A stretch of DNA of 64,000 nucleotides from Thiobacillus denitrificans DSM 12475 (GTDB taxonomy: Bacteria > Pseudomonadota > Gammaproteobacteria > Burkholderiales > Thiobacillaceae), in assembly GCF_000376425.1 (NCBI RefSeq), contig NZ_AQWL01000007.1:100414-164413 (forward strand). The letters run 5' to 3'. Of this stretch, positions 50,262 to 62,952 are shown one piece after another. The stretch's first letter is position 1. Every line of letters starts with the position of its first letter. Made by a program: the position numbers and the translations under genes. Under the pieces are notes generated by a model, which searched no databases, was not told the origin of the DNA, and saw nothing but the letters and a program-made list of their open reading frames with translations.

Positions 50262-50726
50262 TTAGAACGGGATGTGATTCCCCCAGCCCAGGTCGCGAGT
50301 ATCGAGCTTGACGTGCCGCTTTATCAGGATGGGTTTTTCACTATCAAGCGAGACAGTGTCGTAATATTTTCCAACTGCGAATACCTTGGTTGCGCCCCCG
50401 TCCAGATTGGTCCTGAATACCTGCAGGGCAGTCACTACGTTTGCCTGCTTCTGGTCTTTGTCGTAGCTGACTTTATATACGACCGCATTGCGAGTAAGGG
50501 GTGCGTGGTCGCTATTGTGCTTGGGTAAAGTATTGAAGAGCTCCTCCATCTCGGCCCTGTTATGGTCCAACCACGTCATGTCCCTCCTGATTTCCGGACT
50601 GAAAGCGGTGACCTTGTACTCGAATTGCTTATCGCACAATCCAAGGAACTCCGAGTAGTCGTTCCGATCCAGTGCGGTGCAAGTCTGATAAACCAACTCT
50701 TCAACGGTAGCTCTGTCAGTGTTCAT
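50262..50726 (-). CDS. Ring-hydroxylating oxygenase beta subunit
   Basis: 154 residues of the SnoaL-like/ring-hydroxylating beta fold: VEELVYQTCTALDRNDYSEFLGLCD, WLDHNRAEMEELFNTLP and a C-terminal ILIKRHVKLDTRDLG. It is shorter than typical aromatic dioxygenase beta subunits (about 160-190). The ATG at 50726 has TTAAGGAG eight bases upstream. The alpha-subunit gene is 234 bases upstream. Base composition is lower in GC than the flanks. Confidence 0.87.
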   Translation of the reverse strand: MNTDRATVEELVYQTCTALDRNDYSEFLGLCDKQFEYKVTAFSPEIRRDMTWLDHNRAEMEELFNTLPKHNSDHAPLTRNAVVYKVSYDKDQKQANVVTALQVFRTNLDGGATKVFAVGKYYDTVSLDSEKPILIKRHVKLDTRDLGWGNHIPF

Positions 50727-50831
50727 GATTTGCTCCTTAAATATCATTTAAAAATAACTGTGTAATTACTGCTGTTCTGCCTGTTCAGCCCGGATACGGC
50801 ACCCCGTTTTCAATAGTCGCTGGCGTTAGCG

Positions 50832-50847
50832 TCCAGAATTTTCTGGA
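50832..50847. repeat. Palindrome TCCAGAATTTTCTGGA between alpha and beta oxygenase genes
   Basis: Perfect 7-bp inverted repeat with a TT spacer in the 234-base gap between the two oxygenase subunit genes; may be a regulatory site or a transcript hairpin. Confidence 0.5.
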
Positions 50848-50960
50848 GGCCTCTCCTTCGTGAAAACGGCGTGCCGCTTTTCCATGATCGTTTCTCCACA
50901 TCCAGTTTTCCTGCCCTTCGGATCGGACGCTAAACGTCTATCGTTCCAACAGGCAGGACG

Positions 50961-52223
50961 TCAGACTGTTTGGGCAACATCTTTCGTTTGGGGCTTGGGC
51001 ACTGTCGTTTGCTGCTTTGGCGCTGTTGCCTGGTGCATCGGGTCAGAGGAACTGCGGCCCATCCGCTTACTCCACTCCTCAAGATAGTGGCGCATGCCGA
51101 CCTCGTCGTGGATCGTCAGGTCTTCCTCGCGCGCATGCAGCACATACATGGGATCGCTTCCCTTGGCCATGGCGATACCCTGCCCGGAAGAAGCCAACAG
51201 ATCTTCGTGCAGGTTACGGCCGAATGGGCTCCAGATCGTGGCCGCGTCCTTCTCGCGCTGCTGGCGTATTTCCGGGGTGTCGCTCTTGAGACCCAGTATG
51301 CGGAACTCGAGAATGACATGATCCGGGCCGAGCGGAATATAGGAATCTATCCGTAATACGGAAGTGCGCAGGTTGAACGTGATGCACGGGAAAAGGTCCA
51401 CCAGCTTCCAGCCATTGGTAGGCAATTTTGGCCAGCCAAGCTTGGAATGGCCGCTGCCAGTGTACGCGTCGTACGAGACATTCATTGAGCCGACCGAAGC
51501 GTGGCCGTTGGGGAAGGCCGTGTACTTGCGCTGGAAATACCCCGACTTCGAATCCAGCATGCCGGTAATGCGATTATGGTAGTGCAGGTAGTCGTGATAA
51601 AACTCGCTATTGGTGTCGTGGATCAGCTTGAAGTTCGTACGCAGCGTGGCCTGGTAGTACCACAACACTTCCAGCGGTTCCGCCTCCAGCTCCGGCAGCA
51701 TGTAATCCAGAGACGAGCCGATATGCTCTGAAAGAGGGCCGCAGGAATCGTCGAGGTTGACCCAAACGAAGCCGCCGTAACCCACTTCCGTTCTTACTTC
51801 CTTGAGACCAACGTCGCTTTCGCTGACGCGCTCCTGGTACCCGGCTTTCCCACGGGGAATGTCTACACAGTTGCCTTTTGCGTCAAATGCCCATTGGTGA
51901 AAAATGCAAACCAGCTTCTTGGCGTTGCCGGAAGGCTCATAAACCAGGAGATTGCCCCGGTGAGTACAGATGTTGTAAAAGGTGCGGATCTTCATGTCCT
52001 CTCCCCGCACAATCACAAGTGGAGTGCCGCCCGGGTGTTGATAGGTACGAAAATCATTGGCATTGGCCACTTCGCTTTCGTGGATGGCAAGCATCCAGAC
52101 TTTCTTGAAAATCTTTTCTTTCTCCTCCTCAAAAATGGCCGGGTCGGAATAAATCATAGGGTCCGCGTAATGTGTCGGCGGAAGGCTGGGTTTTTGTGAC
52201 CACTGCTGGCTGTTGCGTGACAT
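50961..52223 (-). CDS. Rieske non-haem iron oxygenase alpha subunit
   Basis: 420 residues. Rieske domain: Cys86-x-His88 (ICTHRGNLL) and Cys106-x2-His109 (VCIFHQWAFD), with 17 residues between the halves, the usual spacing. The catalytic region reads HDTNSEFYHDYLHYH (202-216): His210 and His214 or His216 for iron, and Glu207 where most aromatic dioxygenases have the bridging Asp. The C-terminal 25 residues are a low-complexity tail (KQQTTVPKPQTKD). No reductase or ferredoxin gene adjoins it. Substrate unknown; the sequence shows only the family. Confidence 0.9.
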   Translation of the reverse strand: MSRNSQQWSQKPSLPPTHYADPMIYSDPAIFEEEKEKIFKKVWMLAIHESEVANANDFRTYQHPGGTPLVIVRGEDMKIRTFYNICTHRGNLLVYEPSGNAKKLVCIFHQWAFDAKGNCVDIPRGKAGYQERVSESDVGLKEVRTEVGYGGFVWVNLDDSCGPLSEHIGSSLDYMLPELEAEPLEVLWYYQATLRTNFKLIHDTNSEFYHDYLHYHNRITGMLDSKSGYFQRKYTAFPNGHASVGSMNVSYDAYTGSGHSKLGWPKLPTNGWKLVDLFPCITFNLRTSVLRIDSYIPLGPDHVILEFRILGLKSDTPEIRQQREKDAATIWSPFGRNLHEDLLASSGQGIAMAKGSDPMYVLHAREEDLTIHDEVGMRHYLEEWSKRMGRSSSDPMHQATAPKQQTTVPKPQTKDVAQTV

Positions 52224-56252: not shown

Positions 56253-56460
56253 AGTGGCGCAGCTATTCGCTGGGCGTATGCCGCCAAACGTCAAGGCGCG
56301 GAATGCCGCTGTGTTCGATAGCCATATCATAATGAAAATCTTGGTTATTACGCGGTTTTCGCAGCCGTTTGTACTATCCGTCGCGAGCCTTATTAGCGGT
56401 ATCCGTGTCGGCACCTGGTAGCTAGGATGCCCGGTCCGAAAATAGCTATCCGCATGCCTT

Positions 56461-59376
56461 ATGGCCCGTAGTGCCGTCCCCCTTACCGATAGCCGTATCC
56501 GTCAGATCAAGGCACCCGACAAGCCGACCAAGCTGGCCGACGGCGGCGGCATGTATTTGCTGTTGCGGCCGGATGGTTCACGTTACTGGCGGCTGGATTA
56601 CCGCTTCGATGGCAAGCGCAAGACACTGGCGCTGGGTGTGTATCCGGAGGTTTTGCTCGGCGAGGCGAGAAGGCGCCGCCGTGCGACGAAGGCGCTGCTG
56701 GCGGCCGGACAGGATCCCGGCGCAGTGAGAAAGGCGGACAAGGCGAATAAACGGGAGCCCGCCACGGATGAACAGGCCTATGCCCTGGCCATGCTCGGCG
56801 AGGGGATGTGGGACTGGGATCTGCATAGTGGTCTGGTCAGGCATAACGCGCAGTGGGCGCGACTGATGGGGCTGGACGAACGGCAGCAGGAGCATGGCTG
56901 GAAGCAGGCCGCAGCAGCACTGCATGAGCAGGACCGGGAGGCGGCGATGACGGCGCTACAGAACTGCATCGAGGGCACGGCCGCCTTCGAATGCGAGCAC
57001 CGTATCCGCCATGCCGGCGGCGCCACGATCTGGGTGCGGAACCGCGGCGAGGTCATGCAGCGCGATGCCGACGGCAAGCCCCTGCGCATGGTGGGCAGTC
57101 TGCGTGAGGTGACTGAACAGCGGCGCGAGGCGCGGGTCATGCGCTCCCACAATCTGCTGCTGCAGACCATCGCAGCGGTCAATGAAATGCTGATGCAGGA
57201 GCTGCCGGAACAGGAGCTAATGGCATGCATCTGCCAGGAGCTGGTGCGCGACAATCTGTTCCGCATGGCCTGGATCGGCCTGGTCGACGAGGACGGCATG
57301 ACGGTGCGCCCCGTGGCGGAGGCCGGCATTGCCCGCGGCTATCTGGCCCAGGCGGCTATCCGCTGCGACGACTCGCCGCAGGGGCAGGGTCCCACCGGCA
57401 CTGCCATTCGTTCGGGCATCACGGTGATCAACGACGATACCGAGACCAATTGGCAGTTCGCGCCGTGGCGGGAGCGGGCACGTGCCCAGGGCTATCGCTC
57501 GTCGGCGGCGACGCCGTTGCGGATGCAGGGGCGTGTGATCGGCGCGCTCAATGTCTACAGCAATGAAGCGCACGCGTTCGGGCCTGAAAAGCGGATGTTG
57601 CTGGAAAAGCTGGCCACCGATCTCGGCGTGGCCATGGGGAATCGCGCGGCACTGGCCGCGCTGCGCGAGAGCGAGGAACGCTTTCGGTTGATTTCCAGTG
57701 TCGCCACCGATCTGCTGTATTCCAGCCTGCAGACGGGAACGGGGTTTTATGCCATCGACTGGGCAACGGCCTCGGCGGACCGCATCTTCGGCTATACGCT
57801 GGATGAGATCCTGGAGCAGGGCTGCTGGCGCAGCTACGTGCATCCGGACGACCTGCCCGAATTCGACCGTAACATCACCTACCTGGAACCGGGGCAGCGC
57901 AGCGAATGCGAGCTGCGCATCCTCGCCCGCGATGGCGCCATCCACTATATCCGGGCCTATTCCATGGAGGTGAAGTCGGATGACGGACAGCACCGACTGT
58001 ATGGCGCCTGCCAGGACATTACCGAGCGCAGGCAGGCGGAAGCGCGCATCGAGTTCCTTGCCCATCACGATATCCTGACCGGCCTGCCCAACCGCGTGCT
58101 GTTGCGCGACCGCTTCGAACAGGCGCTGGCGGTAGCGCAGCGGGCCCGGTCGCATATGGCCGTGCTGTTTCTCGATCTGGACAACTTCAAGGTGGTGAAC
58201 GACAGCCTGGGACATGCCGCCGGCGATGAACTGCTGCTGACCGCGGTCTCGCGTCTGTCCCGCTGCGTGCGCGACAGCGATACCATCAGCCGTCAGGGCG
58301 GCGACGAATTCGTTCTGCTGCTGAATGACATTCCGGATATAGACAGGGTGAAACAGATTGCCGCCGATATCCTCAGCCATCTGGCCGAACCGCTGGAGAT
58401 CAACGGCCACGTGCTGAACGCATCCTGCAGTATCGGCGTCGCGATTTATCCCGAGGACGGCAGCGATTTCGACAACCTGCTGCAGAAGGCCGATACCGCC
58501 ATGTACAACGCCAAGGATGCCGGCCGCAACAGCTATCGCTTCTTCGACGAGCAGATGAACCAGCAGGCCCAGGAGCATTTGATATTGCAGCACCGGCTGC
58601 ACCAGGCGCTCTACCGTGCGGAACTCCAGGTGCATTATCAGCCGCAGCTGGAAATCGGCAGCGGCAAGGTGACCGGAGTGGAGGCGTTGCTGCGCTGGCA
58701 GAATCCGGAGCTGGGCGAGGTGGCGCCGAGCCGTTTCATTCCGGTGGCGGAACGCTGCGGCCTTATCGTGCCCATCGGCGCCTGGGTGCTGGAGCAGGCT
58801 TGCCACCAGGCCCAGGCATGGCGCCAGGCCGGATTGGCCGACGTCACCGTGTCGGTCAACTTGTCCGCCATGCAGTTCCACCGTTTCAGCCTGGTCGAAA
58901 TGGTCGCAGGCACGCTGGGCAGAAGCGGGCTGCCGCCGCATTTTCTGGAACTGGAACTAACCGAGTCCATCCTGCTGCAGGATGTGGAGAGCACCCTGGA
59001 TACGGTGCGGCAACTGAAACGCCTGGGTGTACGCTTGTCCATCGACGATTTCGGTACCGGCTATTCGTCGCTCAGCTATCTCAAGCGTTTCGCCGTCGAT
59101 CGGCTGAAGATCGACCAGTCCTTCATGCACGACGTCAATACCGACCCGGACAATGCCGCCATTGTCCGTGCGGTCATCCAGCTGGCCCGCAGCCTGCGCC
59201 TGGACATCATCGCCGAGGGAGTGGAAACGCCGGCGCAACTGGCTTTTCTGCGCAAGGAAGGATGCCGGGAAGCGCAGGGCTACCTGTTCAGCCGGCCGCT
59301 GTCAGCGGCCGCCATGGAGACCTTTTTGCGTGAACGCATCGCGACGGCTGACGAGGCGAACCGGCTTGCGCTGTAA
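56461..59376 (+). CDS. Integrase arm-binding domain fused to PAS-GAF-PAS-GGDEF-EAL
   Basis: 971 residues in one uninterrupted frame. Residues 1-95 are a DUF4102 arm-type DNA-binding domain as in phage-like integrases (PLTDSRIRQIKAPDKPTKL, GMYLLLRPDGSRYWRLDYRF, KTLALGVYPEVLLGEARR). Then PAS (about 108-225), GAF (245-395), PAS (400-535), GGDEF and EAL. The cyclase site is intact (GGDEF 613-617, inhibitory RxxD 604-607), and so are the phosphodiesterase motifs: EAL 741-743, DDFGTGYSS from 862, Lys883, Glu919. The recombinase catalytic domain is absent. So it is a c-di-GMP enzyme with a DNA-binding head, unlike typical GGDEF-EAL proteins. No ribosome binding site is obvious. Confidence 0.9.
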   Translation: MARSAVPLTDSRIRQIKAPDKPTKLADGGGMYLLLRPDGSRYWRLDYRFDGKRKTLALGVYPEVLLGEARRRRRATKALLAAGQDPGAVRKADKANKREPATDEQAYALAMLGEGMWDWDLHSGLVRHNAQWARLMGLDERQQEHGWKQAAAALHEQDREAAMTALQNCIEGTAAFECEHRIRHAGGATIWVRNRGEVMQRDADGKPLRMVGSLREVTEQRREARVMRSHNLLLQTIAAVNEMLMQELPEQELMACICQELVRDNLFRMAWIGLVDEDGMTVRPVAEAGIARGYLAQAAIRCDDSPQGQGPTGTAIRSGITVINDDTETNWQFAPWRERARAQGYRSSAATPLRMQGRVIGALNVYSNEAHAFGPEKRMLLEKLATDLGVAMGNRAALAALRESEERFRLISSVATDLLYSSLQTGTGFYAIDWATASADRIFGYTLDEILEQGCWRSYVHPDDLPEFDRNITYLEPGQRSECELRILARDGAIHYIRAYSMEVKSDDGQHRLYGACQDITERRQAEARIEFLAHHDILTGLPNRVLLRDRFEQALAVAQRARSHMAVLFLDLDNFKVVNDSLGHAAGDELLLTAVSRLSRCVRDSDTISRQGGDEFVLLLNDIPDIDRVKQIAADILSHLAEPLEINGHVLNASCSIGVAIYPEDGSDFDNLLQKADTAMYNAKDAGRNSYRFFDEQMNQQAQEHLILQHRLHQALYRAELQVHYQPQLEIGSGKVTGVEALLRWQNPELGEVAPSRFIPVAERCGLIVPIGAWVLEQACHQAQAWRQAGLADVTVSVNLSAMQFHRFSLVEMVAGTLGRSGLPPHFLELELTESILLQDVESTLDTVRQLKRLGVRLSIDDFGTGYSSLSYLKRFAVDRLKIDQSFMHDVNTDPDNAAIVRAVIQLARSLRLDIIAEGVETPAQLAFLRKEGCREAQGYLFSRPLSAAAMETFLRERIATADEANRLAL

Positions 59377-59445: not shown

Positions 59446-59727
59446 ATGAGTCACAAGCGCGAGATTTTATTGCGATCCATTTTTGAAGGGCCGGTCAGCG
59501 GCAATATCCACTGGCGCGAGGTGGAGTCGATGCTGACGCACCTGGGCGCCAGGGTGGAGCCGCACCACGGCGCGAGCTTTCGTGTGGTGTTGAACGGCGT
59601 GGAGGGGTTCATCCACCGTCCACACAACAGCACCACCTGTACCAAACAGGAACTGCGCCATGTACGCGATTATCTGGTGTCGGCGGGCGTAAGCCTGCCG
59701 CAGGATGATCGAGCCGGAGAGCATTAA
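59446..59727 (+). CDS. HicA-like toxin (orphan)
   Basis: 93 residues. SGNIHWREVESMLTHLGARV, HGASFRVVLNGVEGFIHRPH and ELRHVRDYLVSAGV match the HicA mRNA-interferase fold, with the catalytic His in the HRPH region. No HicB antitoxin gene follows; the next gene is fdnG. Start ATG at 59446 rather than an earlier in-frame codon, because the family begins near SHKREILL. It may be a domesticated or inactive toxin. Confidence 0.85.
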   Translation: MSHKREILLRSIFEGPVSGNIHWREVESMLTHLGARVEPHHGASFRVVLNGVEGFIHRPHNSTTCTKQELRHVRDYLVSAGVSLPQDDRAGEH

Positions 59728-59880
59728 TCGGCCGCAATTCGAAAGCCGGCTGTCGTGCCGGGGAAGGCGGCGTGCTTTCCCTGCTGTGGGTAATCCGATT
59801 GATTGAGAAGTTTGCATAAGTGCTTTTTGTTCCTATAGTTTTTCTATGCATGCAGACGCATGGAAAACGGGAGGGACGAA

Positions 59881-62800
59881 ATGCAAGTGACTCGAAGACA
59901 GTTCTTCAGAATCTGTGCGGCGGGGGTGGGTAGTTCCAGCCTGGCGGCGCTGGGTTTCGCACCCGGCGAGGCGTTGGCGGAAGTGCGCACATTCAAGCTC
60001 GCCCAGGCCACGGAAACCCGCAACACTTGCCCCTACTGCTCGGTGGGCTGCGGTCTGCTGATGTACAGCCTGGGCGACAAGTCCAAGAACACCGAGACTG
60101 CGATCTTCCATATCGAAGGCGATCCCGACCATCCGGTCAACCGCGGCACGCTTTGTCCCAAGGGCGCCGCCCTGGTGGATTTCGTGCGCAGCCCCAACCG
60201 TCTGAAGCACCCCGAATACCGCGCGCCAGGCAGCAAGGAATGGAAGCGTATTTCCTGGGACGATGCCTTCGACCGCATTGCCCGCTTGCTGAAGGACGAC
60301 CGCGACAAGAATTTCATCGCCACCAACGACAAGGGCGAAACGGTCAATCGCTGGCTCACCACCGGCGTCCTTGCCGCTTCCGCCGCCAGCAACGAAACCG
60401 GCTACGTGACGCACAAGGTCGTGCGTAGCATGGGGATACTCGGATTCGACAACCAGGCACGTGTCTGACACGGCCCGACGGTGGCAAGTCTTGCCCCGAC
60501 GTTTGGCCGTGGAGCGATGACCAACCATTGGGTTGACATCAAGAATACGGACCTGGTCCTGATCATGGGCGGCAATGCCGCCGAGGCACACCCGTGCGGC
60601 TTCAAGTGGGTGACCGAGGCGAAAGCGCACCGCAAGGCGCGCCTGGTCGTGGTCGACCCGCGCTTCACCCGCTCGGCAGCGGTGTCTGATTACTACGCGC
60701 CGATCCGCGCCGGCTCGGATATCGCCTTTCTTGGCGGCGTCATCAACTACCTGCTGACGCACGACAAGATCCATCACGAATACGTGAAGAACTACACCGA
60801 CTCCAGCTTCCTGGTGAAGGACGAGTTCTCCTTCGAGAACGGCCTGTTTTCCGGCTACGACCCGGAGAAGCGCAGTTACGACAGGTCGTCCTGGGGCTAC
60901 CAGATCGGCGAGGACGGCTACGCCAGGGTCGACCCAACGCTGCAGCATCCACGATGTGTCTTCCAGTTGATGAAGGCGCACTACAGCCGCTACACGCCCG
61001 AGATGGTTTCCACCGTTTGCGGCACCCCGCAGGCGGCTTTTCTCAAGGTGTGCGAGACGATCGCGGAGACTTCGGCGGCCGACAAGACCATGACCATCAT
61101 GTACGCGCTGGGCTGGACCCAGCACTCGGTCGGATCGCAGATGATCCGTACCGGTGCGATGGTTCAGTTGCTGCTGGGCAACATCGGCGCGCCCGGCGGC
61201 GGCATGAACGCGCTGCGCGGCCACTCCAACATCCAGGGTCTGACCGACCTGGGGCTGCTGTCCGATCTGCTGCCGGGGTACCTGACGCTGCCGCGCGATG
61301 CGGAGCAGAACTTCGGGGCCTACATCGACAAGCGCGCCTCCAAGCCGTTGCGTCCGGGGCAGCTGAGTTACTGGCAGAACTACAACAAGTTCCACGTCAG
61401 CCTCATGAAAGCCTGGTTTGGCGACGCCGCCAGCGCGGAGAACAACTGGTGCTACGACTGGCTGCCCAAGATGGACAAGGGCTACGACCTGCTGCAGGTA
61501 TTCGAGGACATGGGCCAGGGCAAGGTCAACGGCTACGTCTGCCAGGGTTTCAACCCGCTGGGCTCGGCACCATGCAAGGTCAAGGTGTCGAATTCGCTGT
61601 CCAAACTGAAGTTCCTCGTCATCGTCGATCCGTTGGCGACCGAGACCTCGGAATTCTGGCAGAACCACGGCGAATACAACGACGTCGACCCGACCAAGAT
61701 CCAGACCGAGGTGTTCCGCCTGCCGTCGACCTGCTTCGCCGAAGAGGATGGCAGCCTGATCAACTCCGGACGCTGGATGCAATGGCACTGGAAAGGCGCC
61801 GAGCCACCCGGCGACGCCAAGGGCGACCAGGAAATCATGGCTGGCATCTTCCTCAGGATCCGTGCGCTGTATCAGAAAGAGGGCGGGGCCTTCCCAGACC
61901 CCATCCTCAACCTGACGTGGAAACACAAGGTGCCGTCGTCCCCTGCGCCCGAAGAACTGGCGCGGGAATTTTCCGGCAAGGCGCTGAAGGACGTGACCGA
62001 TCCGAAGGATCCGACCAGGGTGCTGGTCAAGGCGGGCGAGCAGCTGAACGGCTTCGGTGAACTGCGCGACGATGGCTCGACCTCCTGCGGCTGCTGGATT
62101 TTTTCCGGCGCCTGGAGCGAGAAGGGCAACCTGATGGCGCGGCGCGACAACGCCGATCCCTTCGGCATCGGCCAGACCCTGAACTGGGCCTTCGCCTGGC
62201 CGGCCAACCGGCGCATCCTGTACAACCGTGCCTCCTGCGACCCAAGCGGCAAACCGTACGATCCGGCGCGCAAGCTGATAGCCTGGGATGCCGGGGCGGG
62301 CAAGTGGACGGGGGCCGACGTGCCGGACTTCGTGGCCGACTCGGCGCCCGAAAACGGGATGAACCCTTTCATCATGAACCCGGAAGGGGTGGCGCGCTTC
62401 TTCGCGGTGGACAAGATGGCGGAAGGCCCCTTCCCCGAGCACTACGAACCGTTCGAGACCCCGCTGGCAGCCAATCCGCTGTCGCCCGGCAACCCGATGG
62501 TGCGTTCTTCACCGGCGGCGCGGGTGTTCAAGGACGACTGGGCGACGTTCGGCAAGGCCGACAAGTTTCCGTTCGTCGCCACCACCTACCGGCTCACCGA
62601 GCACTTCCACTTCTGGACCAAGCATGCCCGCCTGAATGCCATCACCCAGCCCGAGCAGTTTGTCGAGATCGGCGAGGAACTGGCGAAGGCGAAGGGCATC
62701 AAGGCCGGCGACCATGTGCGGGTGAAATCGAACCGCGGCCATATCGTCGCGGTCGCGGTGGTGACCAAGCGCATCATGAGCCTGAACGTAAACGGCAAGC

Positions 62801-62952
62801 GGACCCATACGGTGGGCATTCCCCTTCACTGGGGCTTCATGGGCCTGGCGAAGAATGGCTATCTCACCAATACCCTGACCCCCTTCGTGGGCGACGGCAA
62901 CACCCAGACGCCCGAGTTCAAGGCGTTCCTGGTCGACGTCGAAAAAGTGTAG
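59881..62952 (+). CDS. fdnG: Formate dehydrogenase-N alpha subunit, selenocysteine-containing
   Basis: 1,023 residues if UGA at 60466-60468 is read as selenocysteine (residue 196, the same position as in E. coli FdnG). Tat signal VTRRQFFRICAAG (Arg5-Arg6), 4Fe-4S ligands Cys50, Cys53, Cys57 and Cys92, then NQARV-U-HGPTVASLAPTFGRG. The molybdopterin domains follow with TNHWVDIKNTDLVLIMGGNA and later MGLAKNGYLTNTLTPF. A SECIS-like hairpin follows the UGA. ATG 59881 is chosen because GGGAGGGA lies just upstream. Periplasmic; oxidises formate to CO2 and passes electrons through the beta and gamma subunits to quinone. Confidence 0.96.
60479..60498 (+). promoter_or_regulatory. SECIS hairpin for the fdnG selenocysteine codon
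   Basis: CGG pairs with CCG and GGCA with TGCC around an AGUCU loop, with a bulged U at 60482. The apical loop begins 18 bases after the UGA. Bacterial SECIS elements have this position, short loop and bulged U bound by SelB. Confidence 0.8.

Follow-up and report, generated by a model that had tools for sequence, protein, structure and literature searches.

Why would a signaling enzyme carry the DNA-binding arm of an integrase? We asked this of a gene in a 64,000-nucleotide stretch of Thiobacillus denitrificans DSM 12475 (contig NZ_AQWL01000007.1, positions 100,414 to 164,413; hereafter, the window), in which an arm-type DUF4102 domain is joined to PAS, GAF, GGDEF and EAL domains that should form a cyclic di-GMP (c-di-GMP) enzyme. 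The fusion itself, its conservation, selection on the arm, a conserved repeat upstream of the gene and a correlation between arm residues and site bases can all be read from the sequences. They point to an integrase arm and its operator having been exapted together, the resulting enzyme binding, and probably repressing, its own promoter (probability ~0.68). With somewhat less confidence, we also favor a fuller reading in which arm and att-arm operator were taken up as a unit, giving a DNA-bound c-di-GMP enzyme that regulates itself, and DUF4102 arms read DNA by a three-residue code.

An integrase arm conserved at the front of GGDEF-EAL proteins

The gene is a single uninterrupted open reading frame of 971 codons. 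Residues 1-95 taken alone score 88.6 bits against the Pfam arm profile Arm-DNA-bind_3 (cut-off 27) and align to positions 1-82 of its 83, and the Pfam results for this protein include no match to the recombinase domains Phage_integrase (PF00589) and Phage_int_M. The protein contains a DUF4102 arm but is not an integrase, since the catalytic domain is absent, as the initial annotation had stated. Its motifs predict a GGDEF-EAL enzyme, which may make or degrade c-di-GMP. Nine of the ten GGDEF, I-site and EAL patterns that we scored (by regular expressions) are present in all 34 intact fusion proteins described below, including that of the window. The tenth (QGY), a pattern at once too loose and too strict, was found in 26 of the 34, and Q939 and G940 are invariant in the full-length alignment. 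By these motifs, the annotated integrity of both enzyme domains holds across the intact members of the family.

Searching the full protein in 57 genomes of the genus Thiobacillus revealed the fusion gene in 35, with an intact single frame of 808-1231 amino acids in 34; in the remaining genome (G020), a frame break severs the arm, leaving a 127-amino-acid frame. The proposed capture by a signaling protein is supported, but arm-GGDEF-EAL proteins form a genus-wide family and are not confined to this genome. We also searched a profile built from the 35 fusion arms in 118 genomes of the family, among them these 57, in 300 of the order and 369 of the class, with match lists sorted by score and, for the class, kept only up to 1e-30. 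Fusion arms formed a separate score group at 156-178 bits, all in Thiobacillus and, apart from the broken G020, in frames of 824-1244 amino acids. The best non-fusion match among those listed reached 138 bits in the family, 140 in the order and 142 in the class, and the non-fusion frames listed were mostly integrase-sized. No fusion outside Thiobacillus was seen among the matches listed in these three samples: two genomes of the same genus accounted for all fusions in the order sample, and the genome of the window for all those in the class sample. A scan of genome contigs found 32 fusions among the best 80 of 190 relatives, 26 called by a match over at least residues 1-222 and six by GGDEF and EAL motifs in frame. 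None of the 161 matched phage records covered 80% of an arm-PAS query, and among 62 viral loci no match ran past residue 183, the longest-matching one being an integrase. In a plasmid collection, two of 263 records, both outside the matches listed, showed 60-80% identity with a coverage of 80% of the query or more. Among the matches listed, no arm-less orthologue was found in Thiobacillus; the next matches are ~53% identical over residues 455-956.

Several candidates were examined and rejected. Gallionella L155, a possible distant arm-PAS protein (match over residues 8-181), has a 426-amino-acid frame that reads as an ordinary integrase, and viral locus L235 (residues 5-183) is an integrase by Pfam. 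L266 has a 155-amino-acid frame without GGDEF, and L054, a 624-amino-acid frame in the window's own genome, is an integrase with a long tail.

In a FastTree phylogeny of arms (short sequences, and so a guide only), all 35 fusions fell under a common ancestor as one clade (support 0.955). Mean pairwise identity among 34 proteins (broken-frame L045 was excluded from the full-length alignments and identity figures) was 0.75 for the arm, 0.78 for GGDEF and 0.81 for EAL, as against 0.49 for the linker behind the arm, 0.64 for PAS1, 0.69 for GAF and 0.51 for PAS2. The ratio of nonsynonymous to synonymous substitution (dN/dS) in the arm had a median of 0.22 and a maximum of 0.48 (536 scorable of 595 pairs); of 11 close pairs examined, seven gave 0.05-0.10 and the other four 0.14-0.43. 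These values indicate that the arm is under purifying selection and conserved nearly like GGDEF and EAL. The annotated PAS/GAF sensing part is present as well, but it varies across the family, from two PAS domains to PAS-GAF plus three further PAS domains (six members); the arm and GGDEF-EAL are constant.

A vestigial N-terminus, with translation beginning after residue 95 or the arm carried along as neutral baggage, would be compatible with the variable linker. However, arm conservation close to that of GGDEF and EAL and the low dN/dS make a vestigial arm unlikely, the arm is retained while PAS/GAF modules differ, and the start codon lies at the same place in all 35 genes (34 ATG, one GTG). 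We consider this explanation most improbable. The sequences also speak against a frame break between the domains, which, like a late start, would have undone the annotated fusion: 33 further members have a continuous frame and G020 alone is broken after the arm.

Arm residues and site bases in DUF4102 integrases

The fusion arm is of the kind found at the N-terminus of P4-like/IntSXT integrases (KplE1 IntS, HPI, HAI7), all of which share the DUF4102 domain; passages of one survey describe this domain as a hallmark of the IntSXT subgroup (PMC8138268). Our fusion-arm profile matches PDB entries 3JU0 (9.3e-33) and 3JTZ (8.8e-25), and Escherichia coli K-12 IntS scores 89.1 bits to the arm domain. 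These integrases also have arm-type sites before their genes. In a first scan of 61 integrases, a repeat with a 12-bp period lay upstream of eight, and at least one GACGGTA on the gene strand upstream of 20. The 61 include L002, L006 and L071, whose position or strand was misassigned in a related count and corrected for the later ones. Examination of 150 distinct arms (74 in a discovery set, 40 in a first hold-out and 36 in a viral hold-out, after dropping 6, 0 and 12 duplicates, and with 14 of the 62 viral loci omitted because the DNA ahead of the match was too short) yielded a repeated TGNNGGNA site for 92. Integrases without such a repeated site (28 of 74, 11 of 40 and 19 of 36) were left unscored.

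In integrases whose site is repeated, the arm residues at positions 46, 53 and 55 track site bases 3, 4 and 7. The putative code for a site TG34GG7A, which forms part of the fuller reading, would pair residue 46 with base 3 (D with A, K with G, A or S with T), residue 53 with base 4 (R with C, E with G, Q with T) and residue 55 with base 7 (R with C; T, L or M with T). In 80 integrase loci classed by aligned residues, TGACGGTA occurred within 250 bp in 36 of 39 D46/R53 loci (35 of 37 by distinct arms; L139, L141 and L166 lack it), in none of 27 K46/E53 loci and in one of 14 others. Classing by regular expression instead gave 35 of 36 for D/R and 0 of 26 for K/E, L139 and L141 being missed by the pattern. 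K/E arms went with TGGGGGTA (14/14 KEL loci and 12/15 KEM loci) or, when residue 55 was R, with TGGGGGCA (14/14); Q53 arms had T at base 4 (e.g., TGTTGGTA), and two N46/R53 arms had TGGCGGTA. Loci L139 and L141, which have T or A at residue 52, carry upstream repeats CAACGGTA and TGACAGTA, and residue 52 may track a further base.

A base-4 rule fixed beforehand on the discovery set was right in 24 of 24 cases with a site among 40 new integrases (15 had no site and one no prediction). When a broader site pattern was used, a site had to be repeated and no place entered the count twice, bases 3, 4 and 7 were predicted correctly in 39/42, 45/45 and 46/46 cases of the discovery set, 25/26, 29/29 and 27/27 of the first hold-out and 16/16, 15/16 and 15/16 of the viral hold-out. 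The hold-outs pooled give 44/45 for residue 53 with base 4, 41/42 for residue 46 with base 3 and 42/43 for residue 55 with base 7. One count per place was adopted after scores had been seen: the self-complementary TGCCGGCA otherwise counts on both strands, so that one chance copy mimics a repeat. Counted on both strands, the viral set scores 16/19, 15/22 and 15/22 for bases 3, 4 and 7, and double-counted TGCCGGCA is the source of six of the seven wrong viral base-4 results and of the one wrong in 30 in the first hold-out. For base 3, a rule covering just D and K scored 13/15 in the first hold-out; it was later extended to A and to S (the latter once that hold-out had been inspected), and the later score also demands a repeated site. 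The base-7 correlation was noticed with the first hold-out included and is independent only in the viral set (15/16).

Some near-identical Thiobacillus arms gave mixed results: L169 (D46) has mainly TGACGGTA, L165 and L167 (D46) have one TGACGGTA and one TGGCGGTA each, and L173 (N46) has only TGGCGGTA, as does L166 (D46). In protein-DNA recognition, Arg reads G, Glu reads C and Gln reads A, and the code looks like such pairing on the opposite strand. The IntS arm of E. coli K-12, the one member that has been studied well, has R46/E53/I55, and its sites run TGGGTAAA by our after-the-fact reading, with G at base 4, as E53 predicts, and no GG at bases 5-6; the frame TGNNGGNA therefore does not fit all DUF4102 integrases. 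These sites share TAAA according to passages of an IntS study (PMC2951348).

With this rule, arm-site specificity can be tested directly across a large integrase family, and att arms, which are hard to annotate, would be easier to locate; if true, the targets of many DUF4102 arms, free or fused, would be predictable from sequence. D46, R53 and T55, the signature that goes with TGACGGTA, are invariant in all 35 fusion arms, so that the site predicted by the code is the one that most fusion promoters carry.

A conserved repeat upstream of the fusion genes

A direct repeat, TGACGGTA-N4-TGACGGCA, lies 62-68 bp before the start codon with at most two mismatches in 16 in 28 of the 35 fusion genes. 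The best matches up to 110 bp from the start codon have no mismatch at 17 loci, one at nine, two at two, three at two, four at one, five at two, six at one and nine at one; as a control, among 4000 stretches of 110 bp drawn at random from these loci, 40 held a match with at most three mismatches, some of these stretches containing operators themselves. An exact TGACGGTA forms the first half-site in 25 of the 35, and TGACGGCA the second in 23. Across the 31 loci with at most four mismatches, half-site columns are 77-100% conserved versus 35-84% for the four spacer columns, a comparison that favors the half-sites, since the consensus served to select and anchor the rows. The exact pattern TGACGGTANNNNTGACGGYA occurs 33 times in the 57 Thiobacillus genomes versus 0 for a reversed control, and 19 copies directly precede a fusion gene; Thiobacillus thioparus DSM 505, for example, carries the fusion (locus L101/L023) with the exact operator TGACGGTACACCTGACGGCA. 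A second block, TTYRTACY, sits ~17 bp before the repeat and is found within 130 bp upstream, on the same strand, in 32 of 35 fusions versus 2 of 80 integrases. A TAnnAT block stands behind the repeat, and the repeat might overlap a promoter, as in intS. A selected arm of the D46/R53/T55 class and a matching arm-type repeat in the promoter support the annotated capture of an integrase promoter and arm by a signaling protein.

The repeat could instead reflect shared neighborhood ancestry and not an operator: the loci are partly syntenic, so descent alone predicts some conservation. However, the spacer and most flanking columns vary and the half-sites stay, comparable repeats occur upstream of unrelated integrases, and the repeat is predicted by the arm residues, all of which leaves this explanation very unlikely. 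DNA binding by the fusion arm is itself predicted from sequence, which leaves some room for an arm that has lost its DNA binding and is retained to contact proteins (dimerization, or an integrase or other partner); such contacts would also suit fusion genes in which the second half-site or the whole site is lost and the arm still conserved. We regard this as unlikely, however, because none of the 35 arms departs from the three base-tracking residues and the cognate site is kept with at most two mismatches in 28 of 35 promoters.

The 14 exact repeats that lie away from fusion genes raise a further alternative, namely that resident integrative elements are the target: at their arm sites, the arm would anchor the enzyme or act as a competitor, and c-di-GMP signaling would control element excision rather than the fusion gene. 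These 14 of the 33 copies are probably arm sites of integrative elements or scars of these. Four of them (L177, L184, L186 and L188) each lie 197 bp from an AbiEi gene and are likely element ends, and one further copy follows a gene that we take to be guaA. Yet no arm-bearing frame of at least 80 amino acids was found with the window arm in the 3.2-6 kb around the 14 sites. Of 36 genomes carrying the fusion (counting G008, in which a contig end cuts the gene and leaves the C-terminal part only), 9 hold such sites, as do 4 of 21 lacking it, which is no clear link, and the conserved site is the one before the fusion gene itself. Control of resident elements is therefore also an unlikely role. 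When sites with at most two mismatches were sought in the 57 genomes, no other gene family recurred behind the site among the matches listed, hits not being mapped to genes.

A proposed self-regulating enzyme and its genomic context

Our preferred reading, joint exaptation of arm and operator, would begin in a Thiobacillus ancestor with the 5' end of a P4/IntSXT-type integrase gene, comprising the arm domain and the promoter-proximal arm-type repeat, becoming joined to a PAS/GAF-GGDEF-EAL gene. The N-terminal arm of the resulting c-di-GMP enzyme would read TGACGGTA half-sites in its own promoter, most likely for autoregulation, and probably repression, by analogy with P4-like integrases. Self-repression is expected because integrases of the same kind are reported to repress their own genes: passages of PMC2951348 report that intS represses its own promoter, where arm site P'1 overlaps the -10 box, and a passage of PMC7286903 describes intI of PAI I as self-repressing. 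PAS/GAF-dependent changes in the protein would set DNA occupancy, enzyme output or both, and self-repression could be modulated by PAS/GAF signals or c-di-GMP turnover. In this scheme we infer DNA binding, the sign of regulation, sensor coupling and catalytic direction. The DNA-tethered c-di-GMP switch suggested in the initial annotation accords with the sequence evidence as a prediction of DNA binding and c-di-GMP turnover.

Several observations weigh against this reading. The window's own operator copy has 3/16 mismatches to the family consensus and may be weaker, or partly decayed, in this strain, a difference from the annotated picture. Three or more mismatches are found at 7 of 35 loci, some of which retain the first half-site only, and G049 has no half-site. 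By the residue code, the usual second half-site, TGACGGCA, suits R55, and the fusions have T55. A sigma-70 promoter scan of the window recognized no promoter at the fusion upstream region. The fusion arm is missing from 22 of the 57 Thiobacillus genomes (many incomplete, and the contig-cut G008 among them), and the gene seems dispensable from its absence in part of the genus. Because related integrases have arm and site in common, the cases are not independent and the residue-base correlation is due in part to descent. Finally, single arm-site changes did not relieve intS repression, P'1 being inseparable from the promoter, in the passages of PMC2951348 that treat it; repression likely acts via arm sites, not proven site by site.

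The fusion differs from P4-like/IntSXT integrases in lacking core-binding and catalytic domains, with a c-di-GMP enzyme as its C-terminal part, and in occupying a partly conserved chromosomal neighborhood. It resembles PAS/GAF-GGDEF-EAL multi-sensor proteins in having complete GGDEF and EAL domains with canonical motifs, to which it adds an N-terminal arm predicted to read DNA and a matching site. c-di-GMP enzymes with other DNA-binding domains are already known, and the fusion is a variant on these: VieA of Vibrio cholerae (REC-EAL-HTH) likewise combines a second-messenger enzyme with a DNA-binding domain in a single polypeptide, but the latter is a helix-turn-helix in VieA and an integrase arm with its own type of site in the fusion. 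As far as our literature searches go, the joint capture of arm and operator and the code are new. We found no paper combining DUF4102 with GGDEF and no title about arm sites under TGACGGTA and integrase, and no title or abstract opening on fusions, DNA-binding GGDEF/EAL proteins, arm specificity, or c-di-GMP and integrative and conjugative elements described such a fusion or code. If true, our reading offers a traceable example of host signaling taking over the DNA-recognition module of a mobile element jointly with its operator, and links c-di-GMP turnover directly to a DNA site.

Features of the fusion locus, in window coordinates
Feature	Position	Strand	Basis or detail
TTTGTACTA, copy of second conserved upstream block TTYRTACY	56368..56376	+	Upstream comparison
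Putative arm-type operator TAGCGGTA-TCCG-TGTCGGCA	56394..56413	+	3/16 mismatches to TGACGGTA-N4-TGACGGCA
TAGGAT, conserved TAnnAT, possible -10 element	56423..56428	+	Upstream alignment
Arm-PAS-GAF-PAS-GGDEF-EAL fusion gene, 971 amino acids	56461..59376	+	ATG at 56461, stop 59374-59376
Arm-DNA-bind_3 (PF13356, formerly DUF4102), residues 8-92	56482..56736	+	Pfam E 4.4e-23, whole protein
PAS_3, residues 127-213	56839..57099	+	Pfam
GAF_2, residues 248-392	57202..57636	+	Pfam
Second PAS, residues ~433-525	57757..58035	+	Pfam
GGDEF, residues 534-690, with RQGGDEF and I-site RDSD	58060..58530	+	Pfam E 2.5e-50
EAL, residues 712-946, with EALLR, VNLS, ELTE, DDFGTG, LKID, AEGVE	58594..59298	+	Pfam E 1.1e-73
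Small HicA-like gene directly 3' of the fusion	59446..59727	+	HicA_toxin 23.8 bits, below cut-off 27

Homologues of the window's neighboring genes recur on the same side of the fusion in the 34 other loci, several of whose contigs end too early for these counts: the HicA-like gene downstream in 25, an mscS-type gene in 22, IF-1 in 20 and formate dehydrogenase in 14. The fusion gene therefore looks like an inherited chromosomal gene. The window's neighbor at 59860-62952 (+), which we take from its sequence to be a formate dehydrogenase gene, contains an in-frame TGA at 60466-60468, following NQARV, together with a SECIS_3 element that scores 86.7 bits at 60463-60521. It likely encodes a selenoprotein, and a plain list of open reading frames splits it in two. 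On the other side of the fusion, genes for the alpha (Rieske) and beta subunits of a ring-hydroxylating dioxygenase lie at 50262-52223 (-).

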